Under the pieces are notes generated by a model. That model saw nothing but the letters and a program-made list of their open reading frames with translations, did not search any database and had not been told where the DNA came from. The position numbers were made by a program, and so were the translations under genes. This document shows, one piece after another, positions 15,155-57,342 of a stretch of DNA of 64,000 nt. The DNA is taken from positions 6,279,629 through 6,343,628 of the forward strand of contig NC_079202.1 in NCBI RefSeq assembly GCF_026745355.1, read 5' to 3'. The stretch comes from Beta vulgaris subsp. vulgaris (taxonomy: Eukaryota > Streptophyta > Magnoliopsida > Caryophyllales > Amaranthaceae). The stretch's first letter is position 1. Each line of letters begins with the position of its first letter.

Positions 15155-16160
15155 GATTTTGAGGCTTATTTTTGGCCTTTTTGCTCCCAAATCGTACTTG
15201 TCGAGTCATTTAACCCCAAATTCTCTTTGAACATGCTTATATGAGGCATAACATAACTAGTGTGTAGATTCTTAGACTTGCATTTTTTGTTTGTTGCATT
15301 TCGGGAACGAAAAGGCAATTTCGGGGCTATTTTGGCCTTTTCGCTCCCAAATCATACTTATCGAGTCATTTAACCCCAAATTATTTTTGAACATCATTAT
15401 ATGAGGCAAAATATAACTAGTATGTAGATTCTTAGACTTGCATTTGTTGTTGGTTGCATTTCGGGAACGAAAAGGCCATTTCGGGCCTTTTCGCTCCCAA
15501 ATCGTACTTATCGAGTCATTTTACCCCAAATTCTCTTTGAACATCATTATATGAGGCATAATATAACTAGTGTGTAGATTCTTTGACTTTCATTTGTTGT
15601 TGGTTGCATTTCGGGAACGAAAAGGCCATTTCGGGGCTATTTTCGCCTTTTCGCTCCCAAATCGTACTTATCGAGTCATTTAACCACAAATTCTCTTTGA
15701 ACATCATTATATGAGGCATAATATAACTAACGTGTAGATTCTTAGACTTGCATTTGTTGTTGGTTGCATTTCGGGAACGAAAAGGCCATTTCGGGGCTAT
15801 TTTGGCTTTTTCGCTCCCAAATCGTACTTATCGAGTCATTTAACCCAAATTCTTTTTGAACATCATTATATGAGGCATAATATAACTAGCGTGTAGATTC
15901 TTAGACTTGCATTTGTTGTTGGTCGCATTTCGAGAACGAAAACACCATTTCGGGGCTATTTTGGCCTTTTCGCTCCCAAATCGTACTTATCGAGTCATTT
16001 AACCCCAAATTCTCTTTGAACATCATTATTTGAGGCATAATATAACTTTTGTTTATATTCTTAGGATTGCATTTGTTGATGGTTCTATATCGGGAACATA
16101 AATGTGATTTTAGGCCTATTTATGTCTTTTTGCGTCCAATTCCTATTTCTCGAGTCATTT
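15155..16160. repeat. Roughly 160-bp tandem repeat array, about six copies
   Basis: A unit of about 145-165 bp is repeated head to tail with high identity. It contains CGCTCCCAAATCGTACTTAT, CGAGTCATTTAACCCC, GAGGCATAATATAACTAG, GTGTAGATTCTTAGACTTGC and TTTCGGGAACGAAAAGGCCA. One copy lacks part of the TTTCGGGGCTATTTT segment, and the last copy is diverged. It lies between the two transposase genes of the CACTA element. Confidence 0.95.
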
Positions 16161-24732: not shown

Positions 24733-25104
24733 ATGGCACCACCTACCACACTTACATCACTAGCCGAAGATGGTAAAGTTGAAAATAGGTTCATAGTGGA
24801 CGAAGATGAACGTCCTAAGGTTGCATATAACCAATTTAGCGACGAAATCCCGGTGATCTCCCTCGATGGAATTGAGGACGATTCACCAGGAGGACGAAGA
24901 GAGGTTATATGCAAGAAGATAACTCAAGCATGTGAAGTGTGGGGGATGTTTCAAGTGGTGGATCATGGAATTGATCCTAAACTTGTGCACAATATGGCTA
25001 GCTTGTCTAGGCAATTTTTTGCATTACCCGCTGAAGAGAAATTGAGGTATGATATGAAGAATGAGTTCCATAAAGGTGGTTTTCTTGTATCAAGTCATCT
25101 CAAG
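24733..25104 (+). CDS. F3H: F3H exon 1
   Basis: It encodes residues 1-124, starting [20 protein letters not shown] and ending at VSSHLK before the donor GTACCT. It contains the N-terminal DIOX_N region with [16 protein letters not shown] and [10 protein letters not shown]. The ATG is the first in frame and sits in CCATGG context. The frame runs on into the intron for 25 codons and then stops, which supports the splice site. Confidence 0.93.
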
Positions 25105-25204
25105 GTACCTCTCACTCTCTTCTTTATGTGTAGCCATGTTGTTCATGCATATGCTTTTTTTTTTTTTTTGCGGTTCAAATAATTACAATTTAACATGTTA
25201 ATGC

Positions 25205-25281
<77 letters not shown>

Positions 25282-28200
25282 GTACGTAAATGATAAAACA
25301 CCATACTTGGTGTGGTGTCATTATACTATGTTATTAAAATAAATTTATCTAACTTAAAAACTGGGTATCATGTAGTTTTCGACATGATATTCAAGTCAAA
25401 AACTTATACAAAATAGTCGAGTCAGACGCTTAAACATCGTATTCGTGTAAAACATTTTATTCAAATTTGAGTAACATAGGTGTCATTAATATTTTCACTG
25501 AAATAATCAAAAGACACAAAATAAAAGATTATATCCGTCGTAAAGGGACTTAAACACTTATTGAGTTTTAGTGTGTGTATCAAATTTTAAATTATTAAAA
25601 GGTACTCCCTCTGTTTTTTTTTATCTTTCTCACTTTCCATTTACACATCTTTCAATGCACATTTTTGAACTTAAATATCTTTCATTATATATTAGCAAAA
25701 ATTATAACGATTGAATATTAATAATGTACTAATTGAAACGAATCAAACAAGATCCCACATGACTATATTTTTTCTTATAAATTGAAAAAAATTGAGAAGA
25801 TTCTCTCTAAGTATGAATAGTGTCAAGATTCTACGTGAGAACGATAAAAAAAAAACACAGGGAGTATGTGATATAAGATACTGGATTATTTTTCTATTAA
25901 AGAAAAGAAGAGTACTTTTTAATTGATTGAACTAGCTGCCAATAAAGTGTCAGATTTTATATGTAATAATATAATATTAGTTGGACCATATTTACCAACA
26001 ACGAAATTTGTTCATAATAATATGAGACAAACATAATAGAAAATTATTAATATAATATTAGTTGGACCATATTTATCAATATCGAAATTTGTTCATAATA
26101 ATGTGAGACAAACAAAATAGAAAATTATTAAGACTTAAAAGATATATATAGGAAAGAGGGAGTATATATACAATCACACAAAATATAGAGAGAATAAAAA
26201 AAAAACAGAAACCAAAAAAATAAATATAAGATTGGAGATGCACGGATCTAACTTTAAATGATGAGGTTTTGGTTCTGGAAAAATTTAATCTCAAAAAAAA
26301 AAAAGAAAAAAAAAATCCAATGAAAGGAAGATATCTAAGAAACTTTCTAAGTTCCATGGCTAGTGGCTACCTTTTTCCACCTTTCTCCTCACTTGGATCT
26401 CTATTCTGTCCAGTCTCCACCTGCAATAATTCAGCATGATATTCACTCCATCTATCTTCTTCGAATTTGTGGCTGTACCGTCTCAGTCGTTTTCTTGACT
26501 TCGCAAGTTTTGTAGTTTGTCAATTTACATCAGCATGTTTGATCATTTTTTCTAAATACAATGTTTAATCACTTAGACTTCTCACCAACAATCTATTCAT
26601 ACCAACTTTTTCAAAATAAGATTTTGGGATCTCTTCTAAACCTAAACATTAATATAAGAAACTTTGACTGTTCCATCCGCTAAAACAAATTATAATCTAT
26701 ATTTTATATTCAATTATCTCATGTCTGTCAAACAGTTTCATTTTTGTCTTGCATGTCTCGTCTCCCATCATCTAGGACCTAGCTAAAAAGTCCACCTGAC
26801 AACTGTGATAAGGTGTAGATAACTCTATTAAAGTTCTCTCTATATTTATATTTATTTTTCCTACTTTAACTTATTTTTTCCACTCTAGAAAAGATTATAA
26901 ATGAAAAAGAACATTTAAGAATAGAGAAAATATAACTATCTTTCAACCACCCAAAAAAAATAAAATAATATTCTCTCTATTTTTTTATCTTCGCACTTTA
27001 CATTGTTTATATTTAATACTTCCTCTGTTTCTAAATAAGTGCAACATTTCTTGTTTGCACGTTTGCCAATGCATTATTTTAACCATTAATATCTTCAATT
27101 ATCAATAAGTAAAAATTATAAAAAGTTGATATTAAAAAAATTCACATCCGGACGAATCTAACAAGATCCCACATGACTATGTTTTTCCTAAAATATAAAT
27201 CACCAAAGCTAATTAAAGTTTAAAATGTGAATAGTAAACACTATGCAAATGTTGCACTTATTTTGAAACGGAGGTAGTAGTTGTTTGATATACAATAAAT
27301 TATGTAGGTAATAAAAATTCTAATGATTTTTTAAATTGGGTAATTGTTTGGTAGATTGAGAATGGGAAAAATAGAGGCAACCAAAATTCCTAAAAATTAA
27401 AATTTCTACAAAACGTGGAAATTTATTTATCTAGTGGCGACCCCGTGCTCATTCAAAATTCTCACATCAATTTGTTGAAATTAATTACACTTGATGTCAA
27501 GGTGTCAAACAAACACATTAGTAAATTTTCTAGGAATTACTGAAGAAAAATAACTTTCTAGGAAATGAAACTCCCTATGGGAATGTATACCAAACGACCA
27601 TTTAAAGATAATATTCTCAATTTTTTTCTTAATTTATAAGAAAAAAGATAGTTATGTGTAGTCTTGTTTAATTCATCTCAATTAGTACATTATTAATATT
27701 CATTTCGTTATAATTTTTACTAAAATATAATGAAAGATTTTTAAGTTCAAATACGTGTATTGAAAGATAAGCACAAAAAATATGACAATGATAAAAAAAA
27801 TAGAGGGAATACTGCTATCTCATTTTTCTGTTAAGTATAATATTCTTGAGCAACTATAAATAATAACAATAACTATTCTCAATATTTGATAATTTTGTTA
27901 GAAATCACTTACAAAATAACTAAACCTTTTTTTTAGAAACACTACTACTCTCTCTGTTTTATCTTTTTTATTTGGAATGTCACATTATTCATATTTAGAT
28001 AGAATCTTCTTAAAATATAAGAAAAAAATTAAAGTCATGTGGGGTTTTGTTTGATTCATCTCAATTAGTACTTTAATAATATTTAAATTGTTATAATTTT
28101 TCACTAATATATAAGGAAAGATATTTATGTTCAAATATGTATATTGAGAGAAGCGCACAAAAGAGTGAAACGGATAAAACAAACAGAATTGAACGATTTT

Positions 28201-31200
28201 TAATGTAAGTAAACTAGTTTTTTTTTCCCGGACGATGCCTCGGGTTAGTTAAAATAAACAAATATGTTATTATTTTTTATTTCATAATTTATTTTGCTAC
28301 TTTTCGTATTTTTTGCCCATTAAGAAATTAAAAATTCACGTAACGATGTGATAAGTAAACAATATTTGAAATTTGAGTTTGAAACCAATACCTTAAGAGG
28401 AATTGTGGTAAGAGAATATGACATCAATATTCTCTTGTAAATTAAGTAAAAAGAGTGTTAAATATGTACTCCCTTCGTATTTTTAATTGCTACATTTTCC
28501 TTAAATGGTTTTTACTTTTTAATTGCTACATTTTCCTTATTTGGGGGTACTTGGTCCACCATAAAGTAATACTTTTATATTTGTTCTTATCTTTTTCCAC
28601 CCAAAAATACAGCTTTTTCACATATTTCCATTATTTTACATTAAATGGATAAAAAACGTAAAGTCCAAAAAGATTGAACGTGACATTGCATACATTGTTG
28701 TGCATACAACAATGTGGCAATAAAAAATGGAGGGAGTATATATGAGTTAGGTTTTTTAAGTTGACTATAACTATTACAAGACTTTGTCATATTTTATTGG
28801 AAAATTTGCACAAACCACCTTAAGTTTTCACTTATTTAGAAACTCACACCTTTATGTTTTTTTTCCTAAATCTCCACCTAAACTTTACAAAACCTTTATA
28901 AACTCCCACCTCTTAACGAATTTTACCAAACTCCGTTAGTGACGGGACCCACATTAGTTATTTATTTTTTTCCCCTCCAAACTACTCACTTCCCCTTTTT
29001 TTTATAATAGAATTTCCTTTTCACCCTTTGATCATTCACTTATATCTTATCAGAAGGAGGTTTGCCCCCCTTTGTTGCTTGTGTTGGAGGGAAATTCTCT
29101 TATATAAGAAGGGGGAAGTGAGTTGTTTGGAGAGAAAAACAAAAGAAATAACTGATGTGGGTCCCACCACTAACGGAGTTTGGCAAAATTTGTTACGAGG
29201 TGGGAGTTTATAAAGGTTTTGTAAAGTTTAGGTGGAAATTAAGGAAAAAAAACATAAAGGTGGGAGCTTCTAAATAAGTGAAAACTTAAGGTGGTTTCTG
29301 TGCAAATTTTCTTATTTTATTTAAAACATTAAACAACAAAGTTGTAATGTATTGATGGTTAAACTCTTAGTTTTTATTTCAAAGGTCACGTGTTTGATAC
29401 CTTGCACTTACACATTTTTTAAAATGAGGAGTACACATGAACATAAAGCATTTGCATGAGAAATTTGAAGAGAGTGCACGTGACACATAAGCTTTCTTTC
29501 ACACGCCTTTTAATATATTTGTATAGATGTTATATGAAACTGTCTATTAATGAACAATTAAAAAAAACTTCCTTTTGCTAGATACTGGATGACCTTAGTA
29601 AAACAATTTTGTTTTAAAAGATTATTTTAATTATTAGAACTTTTTATTTTCATAAAGTAGTTTTTCATTAAACTTATGTTTTTAAGATAATTTCTAATAA
29701 AATTCCCTTAATATTTAATTTTTTTTGTGCAATTAATGTTTAGTTTGTACTAGTAAATTTTCGGTCAAAACTCAACTTGAGTTGGCTCGTCTCGAACTTG
29801 ACTCGACTTGAAACTTTCACAAGCACGATTTGAGCGAGATCCTACTCGACTTGTACTGTTAAGCTCTCGAGTAGCTCTATAACTTTTTCTTATAAATAAA
29901 TTTCTAAGATTTTATTTTGTTTTATATAAAAGTTTAAACGTTTGAAAAATAAGGTCAAGTTACCAAGCCCCATTAAAATTTAACTCATGGTACATGCCTC
30001 CATGATCATACTTCATAAATTAGTAACATGAGTTTAAAAGAAATAACAAATCGAAAAATGATTTTCGAGTAGTCGAGCCAAGCTAATCGAGTTTGAGTTG
30101 AGCTTAAGTCGAGGCGAGTTTCGAGTCGGGCTGCACAGAAAATTAACGAGCACGAGTCAAGAAAGAGTTTGACGAGCTTAACGAGCTTTCGAGTCGAGTC
30201 GAGCATGGTTTCATGTTTTCGAATCGAATCGAGCAAGGTTTTAATACGAGTCGAGAAGAGCCCCTGTTTGCTATCGACTCGCTTGATTTGAGACACTCAA
30301 TTGTTTCACCAACCATCCTCTTGTGCTTGAATTTTGCCTTCTTCACACCATAGGGTCATTGTTTTACTTCATTACCTTCACCACTAGTAGGTATGTTAGG
30401 TATTTACTCACTTCCATCAAATCTTGTCCTTTTTACTGTTAATCCCATTTTTAGGTAATTCCACTTGTTCTTGTTAAGCTTTGGGACGACCATAATGATT
30501 TTCCGTTGACTTTTTTTTTTTTTTTTTTTACTATGGCCCTCCATTTAGGAATTCTTTTCAACTGTACCTAAGCATGTTCGAGAAGAAACCTAACGTGTTT
30601 CCAATTATTCATTAAATGAGCTTCTCCAAAAACATCATAATCTTTTTTGACCAATTCTGTTTTTTGCAAGAACTTAATCATAAAATACAACCCACCTTAA
30701 AATTTAAGGAGCAAGTCTACCCCCAAGGAACTTTCACCATGTCCACATTTCTTGGAGCAATTTTGTTGAATTGGATTGTCTCCCTAACTTGAAATATTCA
30801 TGAACTTTCCCCAGAAGATACCTTTATTTTAGCTCGTTACAACCACCTTACCGGTCAAGAGAAGTGCTCATAAATGCTGAAATAAGCTAAGGTTTTTGTC
30901 TTCAATTGGATCACATACTCTCTTACCACTAACATTTATTCTAGAGTGGGTTGGATTTTCGATTGCCAGGGTGGTGGCTATAAGGGACGTAGTGGCTAAG
31001 AGAAAAGCATACTGATTATGAAAATGATTGAGTTGGTCGAACAAACTCTTCATCAGTAATTATCATCTTCTTGGTATTAACGATCTTCATCATCACCATA
31101 AACCTCATGGTTGGATATGAATTTTCTTGATATTGAGAAAATTCATAACCATAGTTAGATTGATGATATGAAAGGTTATCATATTGAGATGAATATTCAT

Positions 31201-34200
31201 GGTAAAGATTATCATGTTGAGGAGAATGAATTTGTGAATTTTCACCTCTTTGATTCATGATTATTTGAGATGGTGGCCTGGGTGATAATTTGAATGATTT
31301 TGAGAAATATTTTGGTGATGATTTTTTCTGAATATTTGGTTTTTTTTGAGAGGCTTTGCTATGATTTTTCCCATTAGGATTAATGGAATTCAAAATTATA
31401 ATGATTTTTAACAAAAAGAAATTACAAGAGCATTAAAATTAAATGAATAAAGTAGAGAAAAATAGTAGAAAGGGAGAAAATTGAGTCTGTACAAAATATT
31501 GCAAATTAGGTGTCTATCTGTAGAACTCGAAATAATAGAATTGCTGATTTTTTATGTTATTTAGAATATAACCGTTGCAATAATATTATCAATAAGCGAC
31601 GTATATATTTTATCCGTCAATTGAACGAAGCCAAGTGTCGTGATAACAGGAGTGTTGACATGTGTGTCAAGCCACCTGCTGTCCCTTTTTTAACCAGCTC
31701 AACATCAAAACACGTCGTTATGACATTGAGCTGGGCGATAAAGTTTAACTTTTTGAACCAGACCAGTGGGCAACCATAATTTCTTTTCACCATTAAGGAT
31801 AAAAAATGTAAATTTGTCTTCACAATCTTTATTTTTATTCACTATTGAGCATTCTCTAACTAAATTTCAAGCGTAAAAGTTTTCTTAAGCATACTGCATT
31901 GGTCATGTCTATGATCTATTGCCATCTTTTGTTTTCTGGAAGGTAAAAGCACTAGTGGCTATTCCGTGACTGACCCAACCTATCTCATATTTATAAGTTA
32001 ACCCATTTTAGTCTAGCTTGTAATGAAAAAGAGGAGAAACAACTTAAAAGCACAAGTACTATTGTACTAGAGTAAACTATATTATATATATATGGGCGGA
32101 CTTAACATATTTGCCTGGTCGTAACTCATATGTTTATTTTTAAAGGGAAGGAGCAATCAACTACAAGTGACATTACTCTTTGTATCCATACTAAATTATT
32201 AGGATTTCTCTAACTTATACTTTAAGGCATGTCTTAAAGACATTAAAAAAATTCCATTTTTAAAAATCCAATCAAACTATATATCTTATATTTTTTTTTT
32301 TTTTTTTTGAGGGGACTATATATCTTATATAATTCACTCTATCTTTGATATCTATCTTTATTTTATTATTCCTGAATAGAATATTGTTCTATTATATTCT
32401 TTTAAATGAACTCTTGAAATTCTTAAGTTATCCTTTGTGACACTGGTTAGAAAATTCATTATTAGTTATACAAATATAATAAAAGGCTTTTCTATCAAAG
32501 GAATAGTTAACTTCTAATTCACATGTTTCTAATCCCAATTAAAAATAGTAACTATATGTAGTTATTACTTATTAGGATACAAATATATGACCATTCAAAT
32601 TAAATTTAAGAATTAACCACTAATCTATTATAATTTTCATGCTCAATATTTCAAAGTAAAAGATAATAAAATCTTATAATTATAAAGACATAGACATGCT
32701 TTTTGATCTCTAGCACTTTCATTAAATAATAACATTCTCTTACTAATGTCACTGAAATTGTTTTCTTTAAGTTCTTTTTAAACAACATATCATGTCATAG
32801 CATCCATTTTTCAATTTGGCACTAGATATAATATTACAAAAAACTAATAAAATCAATTATGAAATTTATGAAGAATAATATATTTGATAATTGTAACTAA
32901 CTAGAGGAATCGCCTTATATCGCTGAAAAATTTATATGCATATTAGAAAATATTTTATTCAAACTACCATTTTGTTATCACATTTTTTAATAACCATATT
33001 TTAATTTTTTTTGTATATTTAGTTTAACTATTTTTTTCGTAAATTATTGGTTTTGCTACCCTTGATAGATTTAACTACCTTTCTTCTTATTATTAAGTAC
33101 ATATCTATATGAATGACATAATCACTGATGTTGGCTTATTTGTGTTTGGGGCTGATCAGAATGAAGTAGTAGCAAATTGGCGTGAAATGATGGCGTTCAT
33201 ACCATACCCAGTAAAAGACATAGACTACACAAGGTGGCCTGATCAGCCCAAAGAATGGCGGGCCGTAACTGAAGCCTATAGTGAGAAAATGATGGGTCTT
33301 GGAGCCCAACTTCTAGGGGTCTTATCTGAGGCAATGGGCCTAGAAAGGGACGCCATAAAAAAGGCTTGTAAAGAGATGGCCCAACGAATGTCAGTAAATT
33401 ACTACCCAGAATGCCCAAAGCCCGATATTACAGTTGGACTTACAAGACATTTTGATCCGAGCACAATCACTATTCTTTTACAAGATGAGGTCGGTGGACT
33501 TCAGACTACTAAGGATGATGGGAAAAATTGGATCACAGTTCAACCAATTGAAGGGGCTTTTGTTGTCAACCTTGGTAACCATGCATACGTAAGTTTTTTC
33601 GTAATTTTAGTTTTTGTTTTAGAATCTTGAAATTGGCACAATCTGAGGTCATTTGGCAAAATTCGTGCCTCAATCCTTTAGGGATTCGCTTACCCTCCGT
33701 TGAGGTTTTGACAAGATCTTTCACCTTATCAATTTTTTTAAAAAAATAGGTATACTTTCTTCTTCTCTTTCTAACACACTCTCTATCATTTTTGGTTTTA
33801 TTTTGTGGGTTGCATAGTATCTTAGCAACGGAAGATTCAAGAGCGCAGATCATCGAGCAGTGGTGAATTATAAGCGTAGCCGATTATCAATTGCGTCATT
33901 CATAAATGGAGACAAAGAGTCGATTGTGTATCCCCTTAAGATCGAAGAGGGAAAGAAGGCAGTTTTGGACGAGCCTATGACATTTGCTGAGATGTATAGG
34001 AAGCATTTTATTGACCAACACTACAAAAAAATCCATTTTTCGCAACAACGTTTTGGCAATGACATAAAAGTTGTTGCTAAAAATGCGCTTTAGCAACGAC
34101 AAAGTTGTTGCAATAGATAAGTTTTCATTTCCCTCCCCCAATTACATAAGCGCGGGGTTTGGAACATTCTAGGTCCTTTTATAACAACGATTCAAGTTGT

Positions 34201-37200
34201 AGCTAATTTTGTCTATAATTATTGCAACGACTTTGCATCGTTACTTATGTTTATACATGTCTATTGCAACGACTTTTGTTGTTACTACACGTTTCACATT
34301 TTAGTGCAACGATTTTGTTGTTGCCAAAACTTTTAAAAAAAATCTGAAAATTAAAAATTCAACATCATAAAACAAAACCCACAAATATACTCTTCCAGTT
34401 TCCCACCAACTCTCTTTCATCAAAGGGTTTTCCCCTTCAAAGCTTACATGCGACTGAGCTGCACACAATCCTCCGACGGTTGTTGTTCTGCAGAACGGTT
34501 GTCGTTCGATCGTCCGGCGTGTTGTCGTCCTCAATTCTCCGACGTCCTCTGTTGCCTTGTTGTTTCTCGTCCTCAATTCGGTCATCTTCTTCAGAACGGC
34601 TGCTGTTTGGTCGACCACCAACGACCACCGTCAACCTCCGGTAATACTTGGTTCATCATCCCTTAATTTTTTCCACTCTCTCTCTCCTGGGGTTCGTCGG
34701 ATTACTCAATTACTGAAAACATAACTTGTAACTTATGAATGTGTTAAAACTTACGAACACTTATGAATGTGTTAAAACTTACGAACACTGGTTTTATGAT
34801 TTGAGATAATTTGTGTTAAAACTTTCTGTTAAATGTGATTTGTGAATGCATCTTATGAATGTGTTTTCTTCATTCTAAATTACTTGTTTTATTACTAGCC
34901 CCCAATTTAATTTTGTTTGCAGATATGTGTATTAGTAGTATGGTCGATTGATAAAAATTATATCTTTACATCAATTTCATATCTATACATGAATTCTCTT
35001 GAATTACGATGCTCCTAGGATTTGAGTAAATGATTTAGCCTAATTTATTCAATTATAGTGATATCAATTGTTTTTGTTGATTGACTATCATGGGTTTTGC
35101 CCCATGCCCCCATCCTTGTTGTTTTAATGTGTTTTATAGGGTGTTAAATTTTAAATGAAAAACTCTCTCGTTAACTTACATTAACTTATGACCAAAATTT
35201 TAAATCAATTTTATCAAACATTGACACAAAATTCATGTGTTCTTATTCTTGGTCAGGTTGATTTTGACCAAACTAGTGAAATTCAAAAGGTTTATAGCTT
35301 TGTGGTTGTGGACAAGGTAAGTGTTATACTTTCGGAAATAACTTTGTATAGTCAAACTAATGTTCATGGTGCTAATACTTGTTTTTCTTGTTACGTGTGT
35401 ATTAAACTATCTATATAGTTTCACTTTGTGCATATCTCATTGGGATGTTGTATACATCTTTCTGAATTACTTTACTCTCTGAATTTAGGGAATGGCTTTT
35501 TGTAAGGAATGGATGAAAATAAGTGATCATTCATTGCCCGAATATAGGGAGGGTGTTGATGGTTTTTTAGACTTTGCATTTTCCAGTATTATAGACGTTC
35601 ATGATGCTGCGACCATTAGATGTCCTTGTGATAAATGTCGTAATCTGATTTTTAAAAAAAGGTGTGATGTGAGGTTTGATTTACTAAAGTGGGGAATGTA
35701 TGAGAATTATACTACCTGGGAACTACATGGGGAAATTGTCGATAATCTTGATGGTGGTCAGACAATTCTTGATATTCCTGATATAGAAGGGGCAGGACAT
35801 GATGACAGTGAAGTCAACATGTTGGAGGATGCTTTCGGGGTACCAGCCATGTATTTTGGGCTCAATGAGGAAGAAGTCAATGTGTTTAATGAACATCCTA
35901 GAGGAGAGGCAGCAAAGTTTTATGATTTGTTGAAAGCATATCAAGAGCCACTAATAGTCGAAGGCACAACAATGTCAAAATTGTCTTATATTGTGAAATT
36001 ATTACATTTAAAAGTTTTAAACAATTGGAGTGATAGTTCTTTTGATAGTTTGTTGAAGTTGCAACGCCAGGCTTGGGGAACTGTTATTCCTGATTCTTAT
36101 TATGAGGCAAAAAAATTGATTGCTGATTTGGGGCTTGAGTGTGTTAAAATTGATGCTTGTAAGAATGATTGTTTTTTGTACTGGAAAGAGAATGCAAATT
36201 TAGATAAGTGTCCTACATGTGATTTCCCTAGGTTTAAAAATGTTGATAAAGGACCTTCAAAAGGAGTTAAAGTTCCACACAAGGTGTTACGATACTTTCC
36301 ATTGAAATCTAGGTTACAAAGGTTGTACATGTCTAGAAAAACAGCTAAGGATATGTTGTGGCATAAAATTGAAAGGGTGGATAAGAAAGGGGAAATGAGT
36401 CATCCTGCTGATTCTCCTGCATGGAAATTTATTGATAAAGAGTATACTTCATTTGCTAGTGATCCTCGAAATGTAAGACTTGGACTAGCTTGTGATGGTT
36501 TTCAACCTTTTGATAATTCAACACATAGTATTTGGCCGGTTGTTCTGATTCCGTACAATTTGCCTCCTTGGTTATGCATGAAACCTCATTCTTTTCTTTT
36601 ATCTTTACTTATACCTGGTCCCACAAGTCCTGGTCGAAGCATTGATGTATATCTTCAACCTTTAATTGAAGAGCTAAAGGAGCTTTGGGAAATTGGGGTA
36701 GAAACATATGATGCTCACTCAAAGCAAAATTTTAATATGCGTGCAATGTTGTTATGGACGATCAGTGACTTTCCTGCTTATGCTGATTTGTCGGGTTGGT
36801 CAACTAAAGGTGGATATGCGTGTCCTTCTTGTCACAAGCACACTCACCGTACTTCACTAATGAGTAAAGGTGGCTATTTGCGTCATCGTCGTTGGTTACC
36901 CTCTAATCATAAATGGAGGATAGATAGAAAATCATTTGATAACACAAGGGAAAAAGATAGTGCACCGGTTCCGTTGACTGGGGATGAAATTTTGAACTAT
37001 TTTAACAATTTTGAGCCAGAAAAATTTGGAAAGGTTGCTGGAAAAAAAAGAAAGCGAGATGCCTTAAATAGCTTGTATGGTTGGAACAAGAAAAGCATTT
37101 TTTTCCAACTGCCTTATTGGAAGAAGCTACTAATACGACATAATTTAGATGTCATGCATATCGAAAAAAACGTGTCTGATAATATATTAAGTACATTAAT

Positions 37201-40200
37201 GAATATCAAAGGAAAGACTAAAGACACAATAAAGGCCCGTATTGATTTGATGAATATGGGCATTCGAGCCGACCTCCATCCTATTTTAGAGGGAGACAAA
37301 GTGCGTGTTCCTTTAGCATCTTACACTTTAAACTCAACTGCTAAGGCTGCAATTTGTGAGATGTTTGCAACTATGAAGTCTCCTGATGGATATTTGTCGA
37401 ACATTTCAAGGTGTGTAAGGGACAGTGGTAAAAAAATCTCGGGTTTGAAAAGTCATGATCATCATGTTTTTATTCAGCAGCTTCTTCCTCTTGCAACTCG
37501 TGGTTTTTTGCCCAACAATGTTTATGAGCCTTTGGTTGAGTTAAGCTCCTATTTCCGTAATCTGTGCTCCAAAAAATTAACAACAAAGCAACTTGATGAC
37601 CTTGAAGCTCAAATCCCTTACACATTGTGCAAGCTTGAGATGGTTTTTCCACCGGCATTTTTTTGATGTGATGGTACATTTAGTGGTGCATTTGGCTTCT
37701 GAGGCTAGGATTGGAGGTCCCGTTCGATATAGATGGATGTACCCAGTTGAGAGGTATGTTATTTTGTTATATATATTTTTTCTTTCTATTTATGTCTTAA
37801 TTATTCAACATTTTAAGAATCTTGTATTGACATTAGGTATCTTCGAACACTAAAAAAGTACATTCGAAATAGAGCACAACCAGAGGGTTGCATAGCAGAA
37901 GGATATCTCGCCGACGAGTGTCTAACATTTTGCTCTAGATATATGAATGACATTGACTCAAAATTCAATCGTAAAGGGAGAAATGATGATGATGATAAAG
38001 GGAATGAGGATAATTTCACAAACAAGATGGATATATTCAAACCACTTGGACGCCCTTTGGGACAAGGAGTGGCACTGCATCTTGAATTTGAAGAGTTTAA
38101 TCAAATTCATTTCTATAATCTTGTTAATTGTGATGATCTTCTTGATTTTGTTAAGTAAGTTGTCATACTACTTAATTATTTTATATGTTCATAATTTATT
38201 TTTAGGCCTAATTTTTATTAGTTTTATATTTTTTCTTATATAGTGAGCATAAGTTAGAGTTGGAGAAGAAAAGTCCTAGAAACGTAGAACGGAGACACAA
38301 AAGACAATTTGCTGATTGGGTATATGATCGCGTAAGTTCATAACTAATTCATGTACAGAAAACTGAATATAAATATTATGCGGAGAAAATATGTGACGAT
38401 ATTATGTTTTTTATTTGTCAACAGGTGACCAAATTGTATAAGGATGGGAAGATGGATGAAAATTTGTATAACTTAGTTTGTTCTCCTTCTAGAGTTGTAA
38501 GGCGTTACGCGGGATATATTGTTAATGGTTTTCGATTCCATACTATTGACCGGTGTGAGAAAAGAAAAACTCAAAACAGTGGAGTAATGGTACGAGGGGA
38601 TGATAATTCTGATAAGGAATATTATGGAATTCTGAAAGATGTTTTTGAGATGTGTTACCATGGTGGGAACTGTGTATTTGTTTTTAAATGTTCTTGGTTT
38701 GATGTCGAGCACCTGGGTAGAGGATATAAAGTGGATGATCATGGTTCCATTTCTGTGAATAAGAAGGCGTCCCTGAAAACAGATGAAGTATATGTGTTAG
38801 AATCTCAAGTGGAGCAAGTGTTTTATATACAACACCCAAAAAGTGCAGATTGGAATTTTGTTATTAAAACTCAGCCACGAGATCTTTATGATTTGCCAAG
38901 CATAGAGATCGTTGACCAACTTGAGATTGATGACATAGTTGTAGATGTGGATGCATACCAGCAAGTGGAAGTAGATGAAGCCGAATTTCATAATTTAAGC
39001 GAAACAAATGATGATTTTTTTGTAGACTCATTAGCGACTAATACCTTTATGGTAGAAAAAGAACCTACAGTTGTAAAAATGGTTAGAAAAGCAATGAAGG
39101 ATCTAGGCAAAGTCAATGATGACTTTATCAATGATGGTGACATTGAATCATATGAAGATTCAAGTGAAGAGGAAGAATTTGATGAGTCCTCATCTAATTG
39201 ATGTGTCTGTTTTGTTATATTCTAGTGTGCTTAGTTCAAGATAAAATTTTAGTCTTTTAATTCCTTAATCTTATGGTATCTTACGGTCTGATATTTTATT
39301 GTAGTTGGAATTTATTCTTGACTTTGGATTAGATAATTTTTGTCTTATATAATGATCAATATGTTATTTTTATATGATAAATTTTCTAGCCTTTTGTTTT
39401 AATGGCTGCTATTAATTTTCATATTTTGTTTCTTGTTTATTTATCTAATTGATGTTTCTTGTTTATAATTTATCTCAAATGTTGAAGCTAAGTAAAATAT
39501 GGTTGGTAGAGGTGGAGCAAAGAATGTGGGAAGTCGCAACAATGATGGAAAAGGTATGTGTCATATACTGAAATTTTACGTTCCTTTTTCTATATTTTGT
39601 TTCCTTAAAGGTCCATTATTTAAATGATGCAGCAAGTGTTGGAGGTAATCGAGAAGTTTTGGGAAAAAAAAATCCGATTCTAGTTCAGCGCAATCAGAAT
39701 TTTGTCCCGAGATTACGGACTCTTGCAAATCCACCTCAAATTGATGAAAATTGTGAGTCGACGGCTCCCAATAATAGAGTTACCTTACATGAGGTCGGCC
39801 ACCTTGATATTGATATGGAAAATCCAAATATGAGCAATGATTTGTCTGGATTTATTTCATCAAATGAAGGTATTGTTAGAAAGTATATTAATAAAATACT
39901 TTAGCAACTTTTTAGAAGACACTCTAAATCTATATGTTGTGGATTAGAAAACACTTTAGCAACTCTTTAATTTGTATGTGCATATGTAAGATGTACCTCC
40001 ACAACTTGGAAAGAGGAAAAGAACGAACAAGTTGAACACAAGGATCTCAAAGGCTTTAGAAGCAAATGTTGTCGTGCAAGATCAGCCTATCCAAAGAAGG
40101 GAAGAGTTGAATGCCCAAAATGGTCGAAATACTAACCGACAGCGTGATAACCAAGCACTAGGAGGGAACAATGGTTCAGCACACTCGACAGTTAATGACG

Positions 40201-42988
40201 ACACTCCTCAGAATGGTGAAGGTAAGTATAACAAATTATTTAATGTCACTCTTAATATGTTAATCAAGACACTTTCTCCTGCTATTTTCCCCCCCTTAAA
40301 TTCCTACTTTTCTTTTATACTATTTTAGCTACAAGTAACGTGAAACGGCGGGGACACAGGGGAAAATACAAAAGTTACGTAGTTGACATGAAATTGAAAG
40401 GGCAGAAATCTAAATTAAAAATCTACATTCCTGATGACATTGATCGTGCAATTGGTGAGAATGCTCGTCATTTGGTGAATGAATGTGGTCGTGTTGTAAG
40501 AACAAAGGCTCCTTTAAATGTAAACACTTGGAAAGAAGCATTTGCAAAGGCAGGTGATTCAATGTGGCGAGAAATTCAGGTTTTTACTATGCTGCATTGT
40601 TTTTTGTTTTAGCAACATTGTTCTTTAAATGATTTTCTTAATATTATTCTTTGATTATTTTTTTTTGTTTTTGTTAGAACAAACTTGAAATCAAGGTGGG
40701 TAGTTCTTACATGAAGATGCAAGCCTTTTCCATCGATACCATGCAACGCCTTTACAGGTTATGGAAAAGTCGATTGCACTATTATTATAAGATTTGTGGA
40801 CAAGATGATAAAGAGCGCCTTGACAATCCACCACCAGACTTACCAAAAGAACAATGGGAATATTGTGTAGCACGATTTGGGTCTGATGATTTCAAGGTTT
40901 GAATTAGCTTTTTTATTTTATTGAAAGCGTGTGCATTTATCTTATTTATGATCTTTAATTAATTGATTTTTTTTACTAATTATGTAGAGAATAAGTGAAC
41001 GAAATTCCAAAAATCGTTTGTCTAAGAACAGAACAACACAGACCACTGGTAACTTGTCATTTGCTGAAGTTGAACATATCTTGGTAAAAATGTTTTGACT
41101 TATAATAACATTTATAGTTTTAAGGATTTAGCTATGTCATGCAAAATAAAACTTGTTACCATTTATGCGCTTTTGTATTCACCAGACTCAAGAAAACAAT
41201 GGAGTGAAACCATCGGCTGATGTGATTTGGCTTATTGAGCACACGACAGAAGATGAACAGGGTAATTTAGAGTGGGCTGATGATCGTTCAAAGGAAATTC
41301 ATGTATGTTAAAATTCCAAAAAGATTATATGATATTCTTTAGTGTACTTGTGTTGTTATTATAGTTATAATTTTAATATAACATTGTATTTTTTAGGAAC
41401 AACTGAAAGATGTTGTTGCTGCACATGGTGACTCAATGACTCAAGAGGAAATACTTCTAGATGTTCTGAAACCTAGATCAGGTTATTTTCGTGGCAAGGG
41501 AACTGCTTTACCAGGGTATAGTAAAGGAAGACAACTACTTGAACATCAAAACTTGATTCATAACCAACAAAAAACTATTCAGGAGCAACAACAATTGATT
41601 AAGGAGTTGCAACAAAATCAAGAAAGAACAACAAAACAACTTGAAGAGTCTCGAGAGGCAACAACAAGACTGTTACAACAACAAAAGGAGGAGACACAAC
41701 GTGCAATGGATACCATGAAGGAAGAATTACTTCGAGAACTTGCTGCTAGAGTTACAAGCTAATATGAAGATATTTGAAAGTAAGTTAGAGAAAATTTCTT
41801 TTATGCTCTTATACAACTTATATTATGTTAATATTCGTTTATTATTAGGATATGATATTTTTCTTGCTCTTTTAATGTTTCCGCTGTTGGATTTATGTCA
41901 TTGTTTGGGAGTTTGACCATCATTTGAAGACTACGATGGCTTGTGTATTGTTCATTGCATGTGTAGAAAAAATGGCCTAAATATATACACTAAGAGATAA
42001 TGTTTATCTTGCAGGTAGTGTTGAGAAAGTAAATATATGGAGATATTATGAAAGCATATGGTATGTGAATTGCGCGCGGTGACTTTTTATGCATTGGGTA
42101 TGGTTTTTTTTGGAATGATTATGGATCAATGATCGATTGATATTCTTATATATGGTGATTAAGAGAATGTTGATCATAGAATGATTTGGGAACATTGACG
42201 GATGATATTATTGGAGCAATGATGAATGTAAATTTTTGGAAGAATGATTGATGTATAAGTTAGATGTGATGATTGTGTGAGCAATGGACATGTTTTTTGT
42301 ATTAATGTATTTTACATTATTATGAATTAAATTTTTTGGATCCCGTAAATTATTAGGGTCTCATATTATATCAAAAAGTTTTTACAGGTTCAGAGCTCAA
42401 TTACAAATAATAATTTATATTCTTGCATCTAAAACGTACATTACTTTAGAAGCGACATTGGTCGTTGCTAAAATACATTGTATCTATTTAAATTAGTTTT
42501 ATTCAAAGCTTTTGCAACAAATAAAGTCGTTGCAAAAAACAGTTTATGTTTAACAAAGACTATAGTCGCTGCAAAACCAAATCTTATCTATTTCATTAAA
42601 TTTGATTAAGTATCTTCAGCAACGAAATTTGTTGTATCAATAGATTGACTTGTTTTGCAACGACAAATGTTGTTGCCATAAATTCCATTCATATAATTAT
42701 ATCCCACTATGTATGGCAACGACATTTTTATTGCAACGACTACTGTCGTTGTCAAATACGTTTTTTTTGCAACAACAAATGTCGTTGCTCGCATTTTTAG
42801 TGACGCCTGTACCCGCAACGACCTTGCAACGACAAATGTCGTTGCAAAAGATCTTTTTCGCAACGATAAATAACTTTTAACAACGACATTTGTCGTTGCC
42901 AAAAACAGGTTTTCTTGTAGTGCAAGTTGAGCAAGCCAAGATGAGACAATTGGCTAAGGAGCAAAAACTTTTGGAAAGAGGACTTTAA
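24733..42988 (+). CDS. F3H: Flavanone 3-hydroxylase (2-ODD), last exon split by a CACTA transposon
   Basis: The family converts naringenin-type flavanones to dihydroflavonols in the cytosol using 2-oxoglutarate, O2 and Fe(II), upstream of flavonols and anthocyanins. Exons: 24733-25104, 33160-33588, 33818-34018 and, beyond the transposon, 42926-42988. All junctions are GT-AG and phase 0, and intron positions (after SSHLK, and after NLGNHAY) match F3H. The spliced, insertion-free product is 354 residues, usual for the family (about 355-370). Visible: [41 protein letters not shown], iron ligands His221 and Asp223 (RHFDP), His279 (ADHRAVV), and 2-oxoglutarate-binding Arg289-x-Ser291 (RLS). The CACTA insertion follows codon 334. 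With it the frame continues 24 codons into the element and stops at 34093, giving a 358-residue chimera with a foreign tail. Activity is unknown. A diverged F3H-like paralogue remains possible. Confidence 0.9.
25207..25278. repeat. AT dinucleotide microsatellite
   Basis: A nearly pure AT run of about 70 bp, broken once by ATAATAAT, inside F3H intron 1. Confidence 0.97.
25605..25864. mobile_element. Stowaway-type MITE in F3H intron 1
   Basis: Starts CTCCCTCTGTTTTTTTTTAT, ends AAAAACACAGGGAG, flanked by TA (25603-25604, 25865-25866). Confidence 0.85.
25967..26128. repeat. 81-bp tandem duplication
   Basis: Two adjacent copies of a unit containing ATATTAGTTGGACCATATTT and GAAATTTGTTCATAATAAT, differing at a few positions. 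Confidence 0.9.
26970..27812. mobile_element. Possible outer MITE interrupted by another MITE
   Basis: The left edge TTCTCTCTATTTTTTTATC and right edge GATAAAAAAAATAGAGGGAA are inverse copies. The right part resembles the interior of 25605-25864 (TGAAAGAT..TTCAAATACGTGTATTGAAAG). The inner Stowaway at 27019-27277 and further DNA lie between them. The borders are tentative. Confidence 0.45.
27019..27277. mobile_element. Stowaway-type MITE in F3H intron 1
   Basis: Starts CTTCCTCTGTTTCTAAATAA, ends TTATTTTGAAACGGAGGTAG, with TA on both sides (27017-27018, 27278-27279). Confidence 0.82.
27948..28190. mobile_element. Diverged Stowaway-like sequence
   Basis: It starts CTCTCTCTGTTTTATC after TA and ends near GATAAAACAAACAGA. 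Internal sequence matches 25605-25864, but the right GGGAG-TA end is lost. Confidence 0.5.
28469..28736. mobile_element. Stowaway-type MITE in F3H intron 1
   Basis: Ends CTCCCTTCGTATTTTTAATT and AATAAAAAATGGAGGGAG, flanked by TA at 28467-28468 and 28737-28738. Confidence 0.88.
28799..29313. mobile_element. Mutator-type long-TIR MITE, 9-bp TSD
   Basis: It begins GGAAAATTTGCACAAACCAC and ends with the inverse (GGTGGTTTCTGTGCAAATTT and TCT). The 9-bp flank TATTTTATT is identical on both sides (28790-28798, 29314-29322). The arms are about 200 bp long and include TAAACTCCCACCTC and its mirror GAGGTGGGAGTTTA. A 9-bp target duplication with long inverted repeats fits the Mutator superfamily. The central 130 bp has no coding capacity. 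Confidence 0.93.
29765..30300. repeat. CGAGTCGAG-rich repeat region
   Basis: Dense TCGAGTCGAG, GAGCTTAACGAGCTTTCGAG and complementary CTCGACTTG words occur, with left and right parts in roughly opposite orientation. It resembles an old inverted-repeat transposon end, but no clean termini were found. Confidence 0.5.
33160..33588 (+). CDS. F3H: F3H exon 2
   Basis: It encodes residues 125-267, from [18 protein letters not shown] to VVNLGNHAY, and ends before GTAAGT. It holds two of the three iron ligands, His221 and Asp223 in [10 protein letters not shown], and the cofactor-site region VNYYPECP. The usual F3H forms here are HTDPGTIT and NLGDHGH, so several normally conserved neighbours of the active site are changed. 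Confidence 0.93.
33818..34018 (+). CDS. F3H: F3H exon 3, part before the insertion
   Basis: It starts after TTGCATAG. It encodes residues 268-334, [17 protein letters not shown] through [14 protein letters not shown]. It contains the third iron ligand His279 and Arg289/Ser291 of the RLS motif. The exon is broken after the CAA codon at 34016-34018 by the CACTA element. Confidence 0.93.
34040..34325. repeat. CACTA left sub-terminal repeats
   Basis: Seven or more copies of GCAACGAC / GTTGTTGC-type motifs in both orientations, presumed TNPA-binding sites. Confidence 0.85.
34326..35491 (+). other. CACTA leader and 5' introns upstream of TNP2
   Basis: A GC-richer segment at 34440-34640 may be the first non-coding exon, followed by AT-rich intron-like DNA to the CTGAATTTAG acceptor at 35488. 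No extra protein is recognised. Confidence 0.45.
35492..39201 (+). CDS. TNP2-type CACTA transposase
   Basis: This is the large transposase of En/Spm elements, which recognises and cuts the CACTA ends. Start [18 protein letters not shown] directly follows an intron acceptor. Exons: 35492-37753, 37838-38154, 38244-38331 and 38425-39201, all GT-AG. Domains in order: transposase-associated N-terminus with CPCDKCRN (residues 1-90), Transposase_21-like core (about 170-560, with [46 protein letters not shown]), then DUF4218- and DUF4216-like regions. The first frame ends at TGA 37664-37666. An extra T in a seven-T run at 37658-37664 shifts the frame from PAFF into [10 protein letters not shown], so as written the protein stops at 724 residues. 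With that base ignored the frame runs to an acidic C-terminus ending at 39201. The shift may be real or a homopolymer error. Confidence 0.9.
39499..41762 (+). CDS. TNPA-like (Ptta/En/Spm) protein
   Basis: This is the second CACTA gene, the presumed DNA-binding partner for the sub-terminal repeats. The frame assembles from eight GT-AG exons without a stop: 39499-39553, 39633-39869, 39991-40221, 40329-40579, 40678-40896, 40988-41083, 41186-41302 and 41397-41762. Start [15 protein letters not shown]. The middle part ([20 protein letters not shown], then a segment with [15 protein letters not shown] and [14 protein letters not shown]) is the Transposase_24/Ptta type. The C-terminus has [20 protein letters not shown] followed by a Gln/Glu-rich coiled coil (about 41540-41750) and stop TAA. 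No disabling change was seen, so it may be functional. Confidence 0.82.
41763..42449 (+). other. CACTA 3' untranslated and internal DNA
   Basis: AT-rich, no coding frame, between the TNPA-like stop and the right sub-terminal repeats. Confidence 0.5.
42450..42905. repeat. CACTA right sub-terminal repeats
   Basis: About a dozen GCAACGAC / GTCGTTGC motifs, several paired as GCAACGACAAATGTCGTTGC palindromes. Confidence 0.9.
42926..42988 (+). CDS. F3H: F3H exon 3, tail beyond the insertion
   Basis: Immediately after the second CAA (42923-42925) the F3H frame resumes with [20 protein letters not shown] and a TAA stop. This is the expected charged C-terminal helix of F3H (family form LARLKKLAKEQ). 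It fits in frame with 33818-34018 when the transposon and one CAA are removed. In the present arrangement it is separated from the rest of the gene by 8.9 kb. Confidence 0.93.
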   Translation, partial: VEQAKMRQLAKEQKLLERGL

Positions 42989-47117: not shown

Positions 47118-47397
47118 TGTTATAATTTGTGTTTGTGGAGGAAGATAATCAGGAGGAAGAGAAGAGGAAGCCATTAATGTGCTTAAGATTGAAGAAGACA
47201 GTAGAGAGGAAGATAGAGGAAAGGGAGAGAATAAGGAACTACATTTTATTATTTGATGAAAAAGTAAAGAAGTATTACAAGTACCTCATATTTATACTAA
47301 TTATCATATTAGTATAATCTAACAAACTAAACCAAACTAATAACAAACTAAGTCAACTCTTGTTAACTAATACTAACTAGTTATGTTATCTCCAACA
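47118..47397 (-). repeat. 3' LTR of the 47118-52578 element
   Basis: 280 bp, nearly identical to 52299-52578 apart from a few substitutions and compensating small indels in a GGAGGA/AGAGGA tract. Confidence 0.95.
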
Positions 47398-52298: not shown

Positions 52299-52578
52299 TG
52301 TTATAATTTGTGTTATGGAGGAAGATAATCAGGAGGAGGAGGAGAAGAGGAAGCCATTAATGTGCTTAAGGTTGAAGAAGACAGTAGAGAGGAAGATAGA
52401 GGAGGGAGAGAATAAGGAACTACATTTTACTATTTGATGAAAAAGTAAAGAAGTATTACAAGTACCTCCTGTTTATACTAATTATCATATTAGTATAATC
52501 TAACAAACTAAACCAAACTAATAACAAACTAAGGCAACTCTTGTTAACTAATACTAACTAGTTAGGTTATCTCCAACA
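52299..52578 (-). repeat. 5' LTR of the 47118-52578 element
   Basis: 280 bp partner LTR. On the minus strand it is followed by the primer-site candidate at 52298 down to 52279. Confidence 0.95.
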
Positions 52579-54446: not shown

Positions 54447-56781
54447 TTTTTTTTTTTTTTTTTTTTTTTTTGACATCAGATAAACATTACAAGGAAAATA
54501 TAAATGAAGAAAAACGAAAACAACAAGGACTAAAAAAAAAAAGAAAAACTAATAGCTGACTGAAGCACTGTTGAGACGATGCTTCCTACACCAATTTGCT
54601 AGTAGATGCGCATCTGAAACCTGATCTCGTGAAACTTTAATCACCTGGCACGTAGTGAATTGCTTACCCAGCTTCCTAATGTGATCGAGTGTCCATTTGA
54701 TGGAAATATCAGTTCCGACTCTCTTGCTAAGATGTTGGACCAGTAAGGCGGAGTTCGAGAGTATTCGAACATGCTGGTGATGTGCACTCTTTGCCCATTT
54801 TAGACCATTGAGACATGCCATAGCTGCAGTATGTAGTGTAGAGTTTGCATAACAAAAAATACCATGTTGAGCGTGACCAGATGCTGAATCAGAATTACAG
54901 CTCCAAGCAGCTCCACCTACTTTCGCGCCCTTGTCCCATGATCCATCTACCTGCATAATGATGGGATTGTCTTGGTGCACTTGTTGGCCAAGACTGGCAC
55001 ATTGAAAACCTGGTGGAGTGCTGGGGTCTCTTGGGTTCCTAGTTGGATCGAAGCGCGGAGCCACGAAAATGTCATGTTGGCCTTTTGTTGTTTGAAGTTG
55101 TCTGCCAATCGATCGTGAGGTAGGACGACAATTGCGGAACACTTGCTTATTTCGTAAAATCCAAATAGACCAGAGGCCACCCACGAATTTTGGTAGCCTA
55201 GAATTGGCGTTATCCTCGTTATTAAACCGTGTTGTCCAATAAGTGAGCCATTCTCTGAAAGATAATTCGGTTGTTGTATTCACCAAAAAATGCAGGTGAC
55301 ACCGTTCCCAAACCTCACAAGCAAGCGGGCACTGTCGAAACAAATGTTGGTTGTCCTCAAAATCCGCTAAACAGATTGGACATTCGGTAGACGTACCAAT
55401 ATCACGATGATACAGGTTACTATAAGTGGCTAGAGCATTATGCCACAACTTCCATAGAAGAAGCATCCATTTTGGCATGATACGCAATCCCCATAAAATA
55501 CGAAAAAACGTATTATCTGAAGAGGATGTCATGCTACAAGTATCAATTTGCTGTTGGAGTAACAGGGCATACCCCGATTTGGTAGAGTAAGAGCCTGACT
55601 TAGTATAGGGCCAAAATTCTTCATCCCCTTGATGCGTGTCATTAGGGAGCTCAATACCTTTTATTTGCCGTGCTGTAGGGCCTTCAAAAAAACGGTTAAT
55701 CGTGCGAGAATCCCAGCCTTGTTGATGTGGTAGAATGAGATGTGCGACTCTTAAACGCCGGGCTTCAGATAGCGTAGTGGCATCGCGAAAAAAAGGCTGT
55801 GATCCGTTCATCCACAATTGGTTAGAAACACTAATATTTCGCCCGTCCCCCACTTTCCATTGCAGGTGGGTGTGGAGACTTTTGTCCGCCCATAAAATGC
55901 CTTTGCGCCCCCAAGAGTCCTGCTGAGATCGCCGCATGGGAGAACAACCTGAAAATCTATCTTTGCTGTAGACTTTGGCAAGTAGTAGATGTGGGTTGTT
56001 TTTTATACGCCACGCTTTCTTCATGAGCAGAGCCTTATTAAAAACACCTACATTACGAAGGCATAGCCCTCCTCGACTTTTGTTACAATGTAGAAGATTG
56101 CGCTTCTTCTAGTGAATACCTTTCCCTCTTGCATCCTTCCAGAAAAATGAAGCTAAAATACTGTCAATTTTGTTTGCAATAGTTGTCGGAATCTTGAAGA
56201 CGGCAAGGTGGTTCATGATAGCCCCTATGAGGATGGAATTGATAACAACCATCTTTGTTGGTTGCGATAAAGTTGTATGATTCCAGCTGGTAATTCGCTG
56301 AGTTATCTTATCCAAAAGAGGGGTGAAGTGTTGAATCTTTGTAGTTTGGATATCAATCGGGATGCCTAGATAAGTACCCAGGGAAGTCTTTGATTCCATT
56401 CGCAAGATGTCTTTGTAAGCTTGCTGACACTCCCTCGGAGTATTCGGGCTGAATTTGACCCAAGATTTCTGTAAGTTCAGGACTTGACCTGATATAGCAC
56501 AGAATCTAGAGATCACTGTCTGAATCGCTCTACAAGAATCCTGTGAAGCTTTAAAGAAGAACATGGAGTCATCCGCGAAAAACAGATGTGAAATTGTTGG
56601 ACCTCGCTTCCCCACCCGAATACCAGTAAAACGTTTGATATCAGTAGCCAAGCTGGTCATGCGCGAAAGAATATCCATACAAAACAAAAAAAGGTATGGA
56701 GAAAGAGGATCTCCTTGCCGTAAACCGCATGTTGGTGTGAAAGTTTCTGTGGTTGCCGTAATGGTAATGGTAATGGTAATG
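54447..56781 (-). mobile_element. Young 5'-truncated LINE insertion, 18-bp TSD
   Basis: The 18-bp target duplication GTATTCATGTGGGATGTC is perfect at 54429-54446 and 56782-56799. A run of T at 54447-54470 is the poly(A) tail on the minus strand. The element is truncated at its 5' end within reverse transcriptase, and the 5' junction has TAATGG repeats. Length 2335 bp. It sits inside the older LINE. Confidence 0.95.
54549..56778 (-). pseudogene. LINE reverse transcriptase / zinc knuckle / RNase H, 5'-truncated
   Basis: One minus-strand frame runs almost the whole element. Reverse transcriptase comes first, with GLRQGDPLSPYLFLFCMDIL, the FADD catalytic box (LFFADDSMFFF), NLQKSW and YLGIPI. After a linker, a zf-RVT region has WNALATYSNLYHRDIG-type sequence and CPICLADFEDNQHLFRQCPL. 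A C-terminal RNase H-like domain (IIMQVDGSWDKGAKVGGAAW) ends at 54549. The only break is a TAG at 56109-56111 where the family usually has Trp (GIHW). In the RNase H the first Asp is kept (QVDGSW), but the usual Glu is Ala (TAAMAC) and the usual Asp is Asn (LSNSA). Confidence 0.9.
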
Positions 56782-57342
56782 GTATTCATGTGGGATGTCA
56801 GAAGGTGAAATAAAGAGAATTGAAGATGCATATGGCCTTATGAGAAGCAAGTTGCCCTTCAAATACTTAAGGTGCCAATTTGTTCCAAGAAGATATCAAA
56901 AGCACAATGTAATTTGATTATACCAAGAATAAGAGTTTGGAGCACTACGAATTTATCCTGCAGTGCTAGGCCTCAGCTCCGTAATGCTATACTTTTTAGC
57001 TTGCAAAATACTGGTATTTATTATACCAAGAAGTGTCCTCTTTCAAGTGATGAAGGTGTCCCCAAATTTCTCTCTGTCTAAAGAATATATTTTAATATAT
57101 AAATCCGTGAGAAACTTGAGAGTATTACCGCCACATGATAACGTTAAAGGCTAATAGATACTACTACTAACTAAACTTTATTGATACAAAAAAAAAAAAT
57201 ACAAAGCCATAAAACAAACAAAATTTGTGTCAGTAAAATACTGACTGCATGTATATGCGGAAATTTAAGTGCTTTATTTAACATTGGAAATATATCTATA
57301 AACCTTCCTTGGATACTTGTCATACTTGTATAATATAAACTA

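Follow-up and report, generated by a model that had tools for sequence, protein, structure and literature searches.

The 64,000-nucleotide stretch of Beta vulgaris subsp. vulgaris DNA analyzed here (the window) contains a three-exon gene of the F3H family whose last exon is interrupted by a transposon with the ends of a CACTA element (Table 1). When the element is left out, exons 1–3 give 354 open codons with GT-AG introns, and tblastn with the proteins P0001, P0002 and P0241 recovered the same three exons. The DIOX_N and 2OG-FeII_Oxy domains are both present, as are the HxD...H and RxS residues of a dioxygenase of this family. The iron ligands of the family (H221, D223 and H279) and its 2-oxoglutarate residues (R289 and S291) are all retained and all lie upstream of the insertion. 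Intron 1 is long, 8,055 bp compared with 586 bp in the second and 3,865 bp in the third gene of the array described below. An inverted repeat of 163 bp lies within this intron (window 28809-28971 and 29138-29300, 92% complementary) and has the look of a foldback or MITE-type sequence.

Table 1. Features of the interrupted gene, of the inserted element and of the surrounding gene array (window positions, except where C1 or C6 is given)
Feature	Position	Strand	Details
F3H-like exon 1	24733..25104	+	124 codons; DIOX_N PF14226, E 3.8e-21
Intron 1	25105..33159	+	8,055 bp; GT...AG; internal repeats
F3H-like exon 2	33160..33588	+	143 codons; H221 and D223 (iron ligands); PF03171, E 1.4e-19
Intron 2	33589..33817	+	
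Exon 3, first 67 codons	33818..34018	+	H279, R289, S291; ends CAA (Gln334)
Target duplication CAA, left copy	34016..34018	+	
CACTA element	34019..42922	+	8,904 bp
Element left end	34019..34418	.	inverted repeat CACTACAA(A/G)AAAA; 8 subterminal GCAACRA motifs in 400 bp
TNP2-type transposase gene	35492..39201	+	Transpos_assoc, Transposase_21, DUF4218, DUF4216
Second element gene, open pieces	39572..41762	+	Transposase_24 (Ptta/En/Spm family) match from about 40329
Element right end	42523..42922	.	13 subterminal GCAACRA motifs in 400 bp; terminal repeat ...TTTTCTTGTAGTG
Target duplication CAA, right copy	42923..42925	+	
Exon 3 remainder	42926..42988	+	last 20 codons and TAA
Window gene	C1:6,304,361-6,322,616		first of array
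Array gene 2	C1:6,383,214 on		open frame of 373 residues, exons joined
Array gene 3	C1:6,404,563 on		open frame of 371 residues, exons joined
Array gene 4	C1:6,513,570 on		open frame of 365 residues, exons joined
Exon-1 fragment	C6:13,122,022 on		
Exon-3 fragment	C1:6,495,351 on		

The left junction, at 34018/34019, reads ...ATTGACCAA on the exon side and CACTACAAAAAAATCC on the element side; the right junction, at 42922/42923, reads ...GGTTTTCTTGTAGTG up to the end of the element and CAAGTTGAGCAAGCC beyond it. The inverted ends agree at 12 of their first 13 bases, CACTACAA stands at both of them in the CACTA...TAGTG arrangement of a terminal inverted repeat, and the flanking CAA triplets form the 3-bp target duplication expected of a CACTA insertion. 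The subterminal repeats typical of this superfamily are also present: GCAACRA, counted on either strand, is clustered in both orientations in the terminal 400 bp on each side (Table 1) and occurs 7 times in the middle 8,104 bp. Over 1,000 base-composition shuffles of each element end, the motif had mean counts of 0.06 (left) and 0.08 (right) and never appeared more than twice. Exon 3 runs ...ATT GAC CAA up to 34018, and the insertion falls between two codons. With the flanks rejoined after a single CAA, the frame resumes into the F3H-like C-terminus and stops at 42986-42988. The empty site can be seen at the protein level in the related proteins P0001 and P0014, which read ...KQVEQ... unbroken.

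The insertion of an 8,904-bp CACTA element into the final exon of a gene of the F3H family is confirmed. The original prediction had described a nearly intact CACTA element in the last exon of F3H, and its junctions were exact: exon 3 ends with the CAA of 34016-34018, the element ends at 42922, and CAA and the in-frame tail follow. The extent it gave, 34016-42925, is the element plus both CAA copies. The element, the exon and the F3H family all stood, whereas the assignment to canonical F3H did not survive the tree and the diagnostic residues considered below. An empty site in relatives, which it had proposed to look for, is provided by P0001 and P0014. It had also allowed that the two halves of the gene might be separate paralogues; the same two unbroken proteins and a 24-base exon-2 probe, with one exact occurrence in the 569,194,541-bp assembly, speak for a single gene. 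Among the open-licence PMC papers listed by our searches, judged by titles and abstract openings, we found no report of this insertion.

The element carries both of the usual CACTA genes and is nearly intact. The exons of the transposase gene would run from about 35492 to 37753, 37837 to 38154 and 38244 to 38331 and then to the stop codon at 39199-39201. Profile matches to Transposase_21 (E 3.6e-90), Transpos_assoc (2.9e-19), DUF4216 (6.3e-16) and, in two pieces, DUF4218 identify the TNP2-type transposase of a CACTA element. A frame of 725 residues holds Transpos_assoc, Transposase_21 and the start of DUF4218, and the rest of DUF4218 and DUF4216 are in later exons. The second gene, with its exons joined by putative GT-AG introns, matches Transposase_24 (PF03004, E 1.1e-11), as would be expected of the TNPA-like partner gene. 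The unbroken transposase frame of an autonomous element is not found as read, the frame being broken at a run of T near 37658-37664 at which the relatives P0122, P0125 and P0133 are unbroken. This break could be a sequencing error. Because the frame is broken, the element is probably unable to move on its own; a working relative could mobilise it.

A second full-length copy of the element lies at C10:45,281,709-45,291,010 (9,302 bp) and is 97.9% identical to the window copy over 8,153 aligned columns, with AAA on both sides in A-rich flanks. The C10 copy has about 1.1 kb that is absent from the window copy and is without four stretches of the latter (45, 554, 80 and 54 columns). Its transposase is in shorter pieces, with a longest open stretch of 308 residues as compared with 725. 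The search for copies scored 40 of 784 candidates, and its counts are lower bounds. Among the matches listed, the best lay in the window and on C10 and none lay in array genes 2, 3 and 4, so that of the four array genes only the window gene is seen to carry the element. The remaining listed matches were at 66-88%, save one 132-bp piece at 95%. Three of them share element bases 346-1561 at 86%, a 1.2-kb stretch that leads up to the transposase gene and takes in its beginning, together with a piece of 47-53 bp near base 2262. Two of these three, on C12 and C3, are 99% alike from a CACTA onwards and look like a different CACTA-like group.

Four F3H-like genes, all in the same orientation, lie within 212 kb of C1 (C1:6,304,361-6,516,697), and the interrupted gene comes first among them. 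The translation of gene 3 is identical to P0002, which is BVRB_1g016270 of Beta vulgaris subsp. vulgaris. A search of the whole assembly gave 117 matches, and those outside the array had at most 47% identity, save two pieces on C6. As queries, the canonical F3H P0241, recorded for Beta vulgaris as BVRB_6g130650, and the Opuntia F3H P0045 had no match above 70% in the assembly, for which absence, a gap or masking are alike possible; the best matches of both were the array genes.

Among the 120 listed of 724 matches, the protein closest to the window gene is P0001, at 81%. The Bienertia protein P0014, a model without part of the first domain, stands at 65% in one comparison and 75% in another, the beet and quinoa proteins named as "like" at 70-71%, and canonical F3H at 59-65%. 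In a tree of 36 rows (the window gene and 35 proteins chosen from 177 listed), the seven F3H-like rows are separated from the 29 canonical ones by a branch with support of 100/100. The window gene, P0001 and the Bienertia protein form a subclade (100/99), separate from that of beet gene 3 and quinoa (97/82). Enlarging the tree to 38 rows with genes 2 and 4 of the array kept the F3H-like rows together on one side of a branch (100/99), with gene 4 on a long branch and unsure in its place.

Eight positions that separate F3H from the flavone synthase I (FNS I) of Apiaceae are tabulated in the accessible text of PMC9851555. The F3H residues are M106, I115, V116, I131, D195, V200, L215 and K216, and those of FNS I are T106, T115, I116, F131, E195, I200, V215 and R216. 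In a count over the 36 rows of the first tree, the window gene has 4 of the 8 F3H residues and 0 of the 8 FNS I residues. Between 3 and 6 of the 8 F3H residues are present in the remaining six F3H-like rows, with P0014 at 2 of the 5 positions it covers. All eight are found in the canonical beet F3H P0241 and in 25 of the 29 canonical rows, the remaining four having 6 or 7. Canonical F3H identity is ruled out by the tree (100/100 and, with the added genes, 100/99) and by these residues, and the gene carries none of the eight residues of an FNS I of the Apiaceae type. The subclade of the window gene also departs at 6 of 120 columns that are invariant in the other 33 rows (K219, G225, L229, D264, Q280 and P298), the other F3H-like subclade at 2 of 116 invariant columns, and control triples of canonical rows, set against other canonical rows only, at 2/189, 0/186, 0/189 and 0/189. 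The subclade changes include K219 to T or I, G225 to S, Q280 to R and D264 to N, and some of them adjoin the iron ligands.

It is conceivable, and we offer this tentatively, that a dioxygenase lineage derived from F3H has been duplicated locally in the Amaranthaceae and has a new activity, and that a CACTA element cut its beet member late in the history of that gene. The window gene is the sole beet member found of its subclade. Under this reading, beet may have lost, or may be segregating for, a chemical trait that its relatives retain. It is possible that the F3H-like clade has been recognised before. Many duplications among Caryophyllales flavonoid genes are described in the available part of PMC10952170.

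As to the origin of the insertion, we propose that a CACTA (En/Spm superfamily) transposon, moving by a cut-and-paste mechanism, landed in the final exon of an F3H-like 2-oxoglutarate dioxygenase gene of beet and in doing so duplicated the codon CAA (Gln334). The element would split the transcript and so separate the last 20 native codons from those before them. Translation into the element would add 24 foreign residues before a stop at 34091, giving a protein of 358 residues with a whole catalytic core. The product is most likely strongly reduced or lost, through poor RNA processing and the missing C-terminal segment. E336 and A344, both invariant in 36 of 36 rows, are among the 20 residues lost. 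Speaking against a loss, all five catalytic residues lie before the insertion, and only 7 of the 60 listed stretches (of 67 matches) in a PDB comparison extend past residue 334, so that many relatives are not alignable to the lost tail. An AlphaFold model of P0001 (31 rows) reached a mean pLDDT of 47 and was set aside. The element is unlikely to be spliced out as an intron. The right end offers a splice acceptor (...TTTTCTTGTAG), and in a scan of all GT donors from 33830 to 34700 only two would give the native tail in frame, each agreeing with the consensus at 4 of 9 positions; the nine donors of our gene models agree at 5-7. Because the insertion falls between codons, a standard 3-bp excision footprint would stay in frame, and a literature search for excision footprints found no paper. 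Overall, we consider it likely that the locus is explained by a CACTA insertion into an F3H-like gene, with the product strongly reduced or lost and no anthocyanin phenotype.

Strong reduction or loss is most likely the outcome rather than a working product. Read-through could make a functional 358-residue dioxygenase with a foreign tail of 24 residues instead of a knock-out, as the element frame is open for 24 codons, all five active-site residues are retained and the length of the C-terminus varies within the F3H-like clade. We regard this as unlikely; AATAAA is absent between 34019 and 35500, the invariant E336 and A344 would be lost, and large inserts often disturb RNA processing. A different question is whether, in beet, the gene had fallen silent or begun to decay before the element arrived, which would make the element a passenger in a dead gene. 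Intron 1 has expanded to 8 kb. No beet product of the window gene is present among the 120 listed of 724 matches, where the best is 81% and the only named beet match is P0002 (70%). The branch of the window gene is 0.27, against 0.11 for its sister P0001, and relative-rate comparisons with P0001 assign it more changes with 5 of 5 outgroups. The statistic exceeds 3.84 with just one of the five, however, and the 354-codon frame is open with GT-AG introns. Nor are its odd changes in excess over its clade: it departs at 3 of 120 columns that are invariant elsewhere, the six further members of the clade at 2-4 of 108-121 and five canonical rows at 0-2 of 117-119. The whole F3H-like clade departs more often than these canonical rows. 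Pairwise dN/dS values (Nei-Gojobori, insert left out) are 0.24 for the window gene and gene 2, 0.30 for the window gene and gene 3 and 0.35 for the intact genes 2 and 3; against gene 4 they are 0.10-0.16, near saturation at synonymous sites. Because dN/dS is 0.24-0.30 against two neighbours, the sequence suggests that the window gene was constrained for most of its history, and we doubt that it was dead before the insertion.

An artefact of assembly, in which unrelated paralogue pieces or contigs were joined around a transposon, is extremely improbable. Repeats can cause misjoins and a near-identical second copy of the element exists, but the 3-bp duplication and the codon continuation are exact, the 569-Mb assembly has a single occurrence of the exon-2 probe, and the copy on C10 differs in its flanks and by 2% in sequence. 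A transposase frame identical to that of the window (P0121) is recorded on another contig, which may be another version of the same assembly. The original prediction went further and likened the locus to the classical unstable colour alleles, taking the gene to be the one for dihydroflavonol formation. In soybean, flower colour is indeed altered by a CACTA element inserted in F3H, the wp allele, according to the accessible part of PMC1947982, and the failure to find a canonical F3H in the beet assembly leaves room for a role of F3H-like genes. We nevertheless judge it very unlikely that an En/Spm insertion has here struck an F3H making pigment dihydroflavonols. The gene belongs to the F3H-like clade, has 4 of 8 diagnostic residues where P0241 has 8 of 8, and is accompanied by three open family neighbours; the transposase frame is broken as read; and the host makes betalains. 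According to the available text of PMC8930957, in which the betalain pathway of beets is mentioned, betalains replaced anthocyanins in most Caryophyllales and flavonols are common; PMC10952170, as far as its text is accessible, can also be cited on this background. Since the pigments of beet are betalains and not anthocyanins, the locus is unlikely to be a flower-colour allele. The colour-allele analogy fails even if the gene had F3H activity, and an anthocyanin phenotype is not expected. Neither anthocyanins in beet nor visible sectors that segregate with this locus are known to us.

Several known systems come close to this one. The soybean wp allele holds Tgm-Express1, a CACTA element of 5.7 kb, in F3H1 (PMC1947982, available part), and there, as would be the case in beet, a CACTA element in an F3H-family gene disturbs the transcript of that gene. 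In wp, the host gene is an F3H for flower colour and the element, filled with host gene fragments, occupies its intron 2, whereas the beet element lies in the last exon of an F3H-like paralogue, carries both of its own genes and is found in a betalain plant. TgmR*, a 13-kb CACTA element in intron 2 of a MYB gene at the soybean R locus (accessible text of PMC4219821), is likewise large and has subterminal repeats, and its gene controls the flavonoid pathway. It is intronic and removable by splicing, however, whereas the beet element is exonic and has only weak in-frame donors for the acceptor at its end. Jozin and other CACTA elements of Chenopodium, another genus of the Amaranthaceae, include a quinoa element of 9,486 bp (PMC8978399, in the part available). 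They have the same order of TAD, Transposase_21, DUF and DUF4216, with Transposase_24 in the second gene (type 3); the third domain is DUF4181 in that text and DUF4218 in the beet element. Their termini differ (CACTAGT...), and the accessible portion of PMC8978399 does not mention insertion into a host gene. Coe1 of Beta vulgaris is described in the available text of PMC2426827 as a Tnp2-domain transposase between putative LTRs with hypothetical CACTATAA ends. It shares with our element a Tnp2-domain transposase in beet, but the element described here is bounded by clean CACTA termini and flanked by a target duplication. Finally, the FNS I of Apiaceae arose from F3H by tandem duplication (PMC9851555, accessible part), and in both cases the F3H family was locally duplicated and diagnostic residues changed, although the beet gene has 0 of 8 FNS I residues. 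From the family placement, we infer that the beet duplication is independent of the one in Apiaceae.

The insertion is well established and, as an exonic CACTA insertion, ordinary; the gene family that it struck is an interesting one. It provides a clean natural case, with an almost complete element at an exonic codon boundary and a full-length sister copy in the same genome, and it sits in an F3H-like array with altered diagnostic residues in a lineage that abandoned anthocyanins. Should beet have both lines that carry the insertion and lines that lack it, these would reveal the role of the gene.

The window contains other repeats and transposon-like sequences. An older CACTA relic at window 11592-15102 has transposase pieces in several frames and a DUF4216 frame, and a tandem array of units of about 160 bp follows at 15170-16160. 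Units of 40-44 bp with AGGGCTGCG and its complement are clustered at window 1383-1492, 5468-5613, 6487-6671 and 9699-9918, and are possibly the subterminal repeats of another CACTA family. LINE-like reverse transcriptase pieces with RVT_1, zf-RVT and RVT_3 lie on the minus strand at window 54549-56837 and 62308-63901, where a match to Exo_endo_phos stayed below its cut-off. Direct repeats at window 47128-47397 and 52311-52578, consisting of 101 bp (85%) and 176 bp (97%) and placed 5.18 kb apart, may be an LTR-like pair or a duplicated target.
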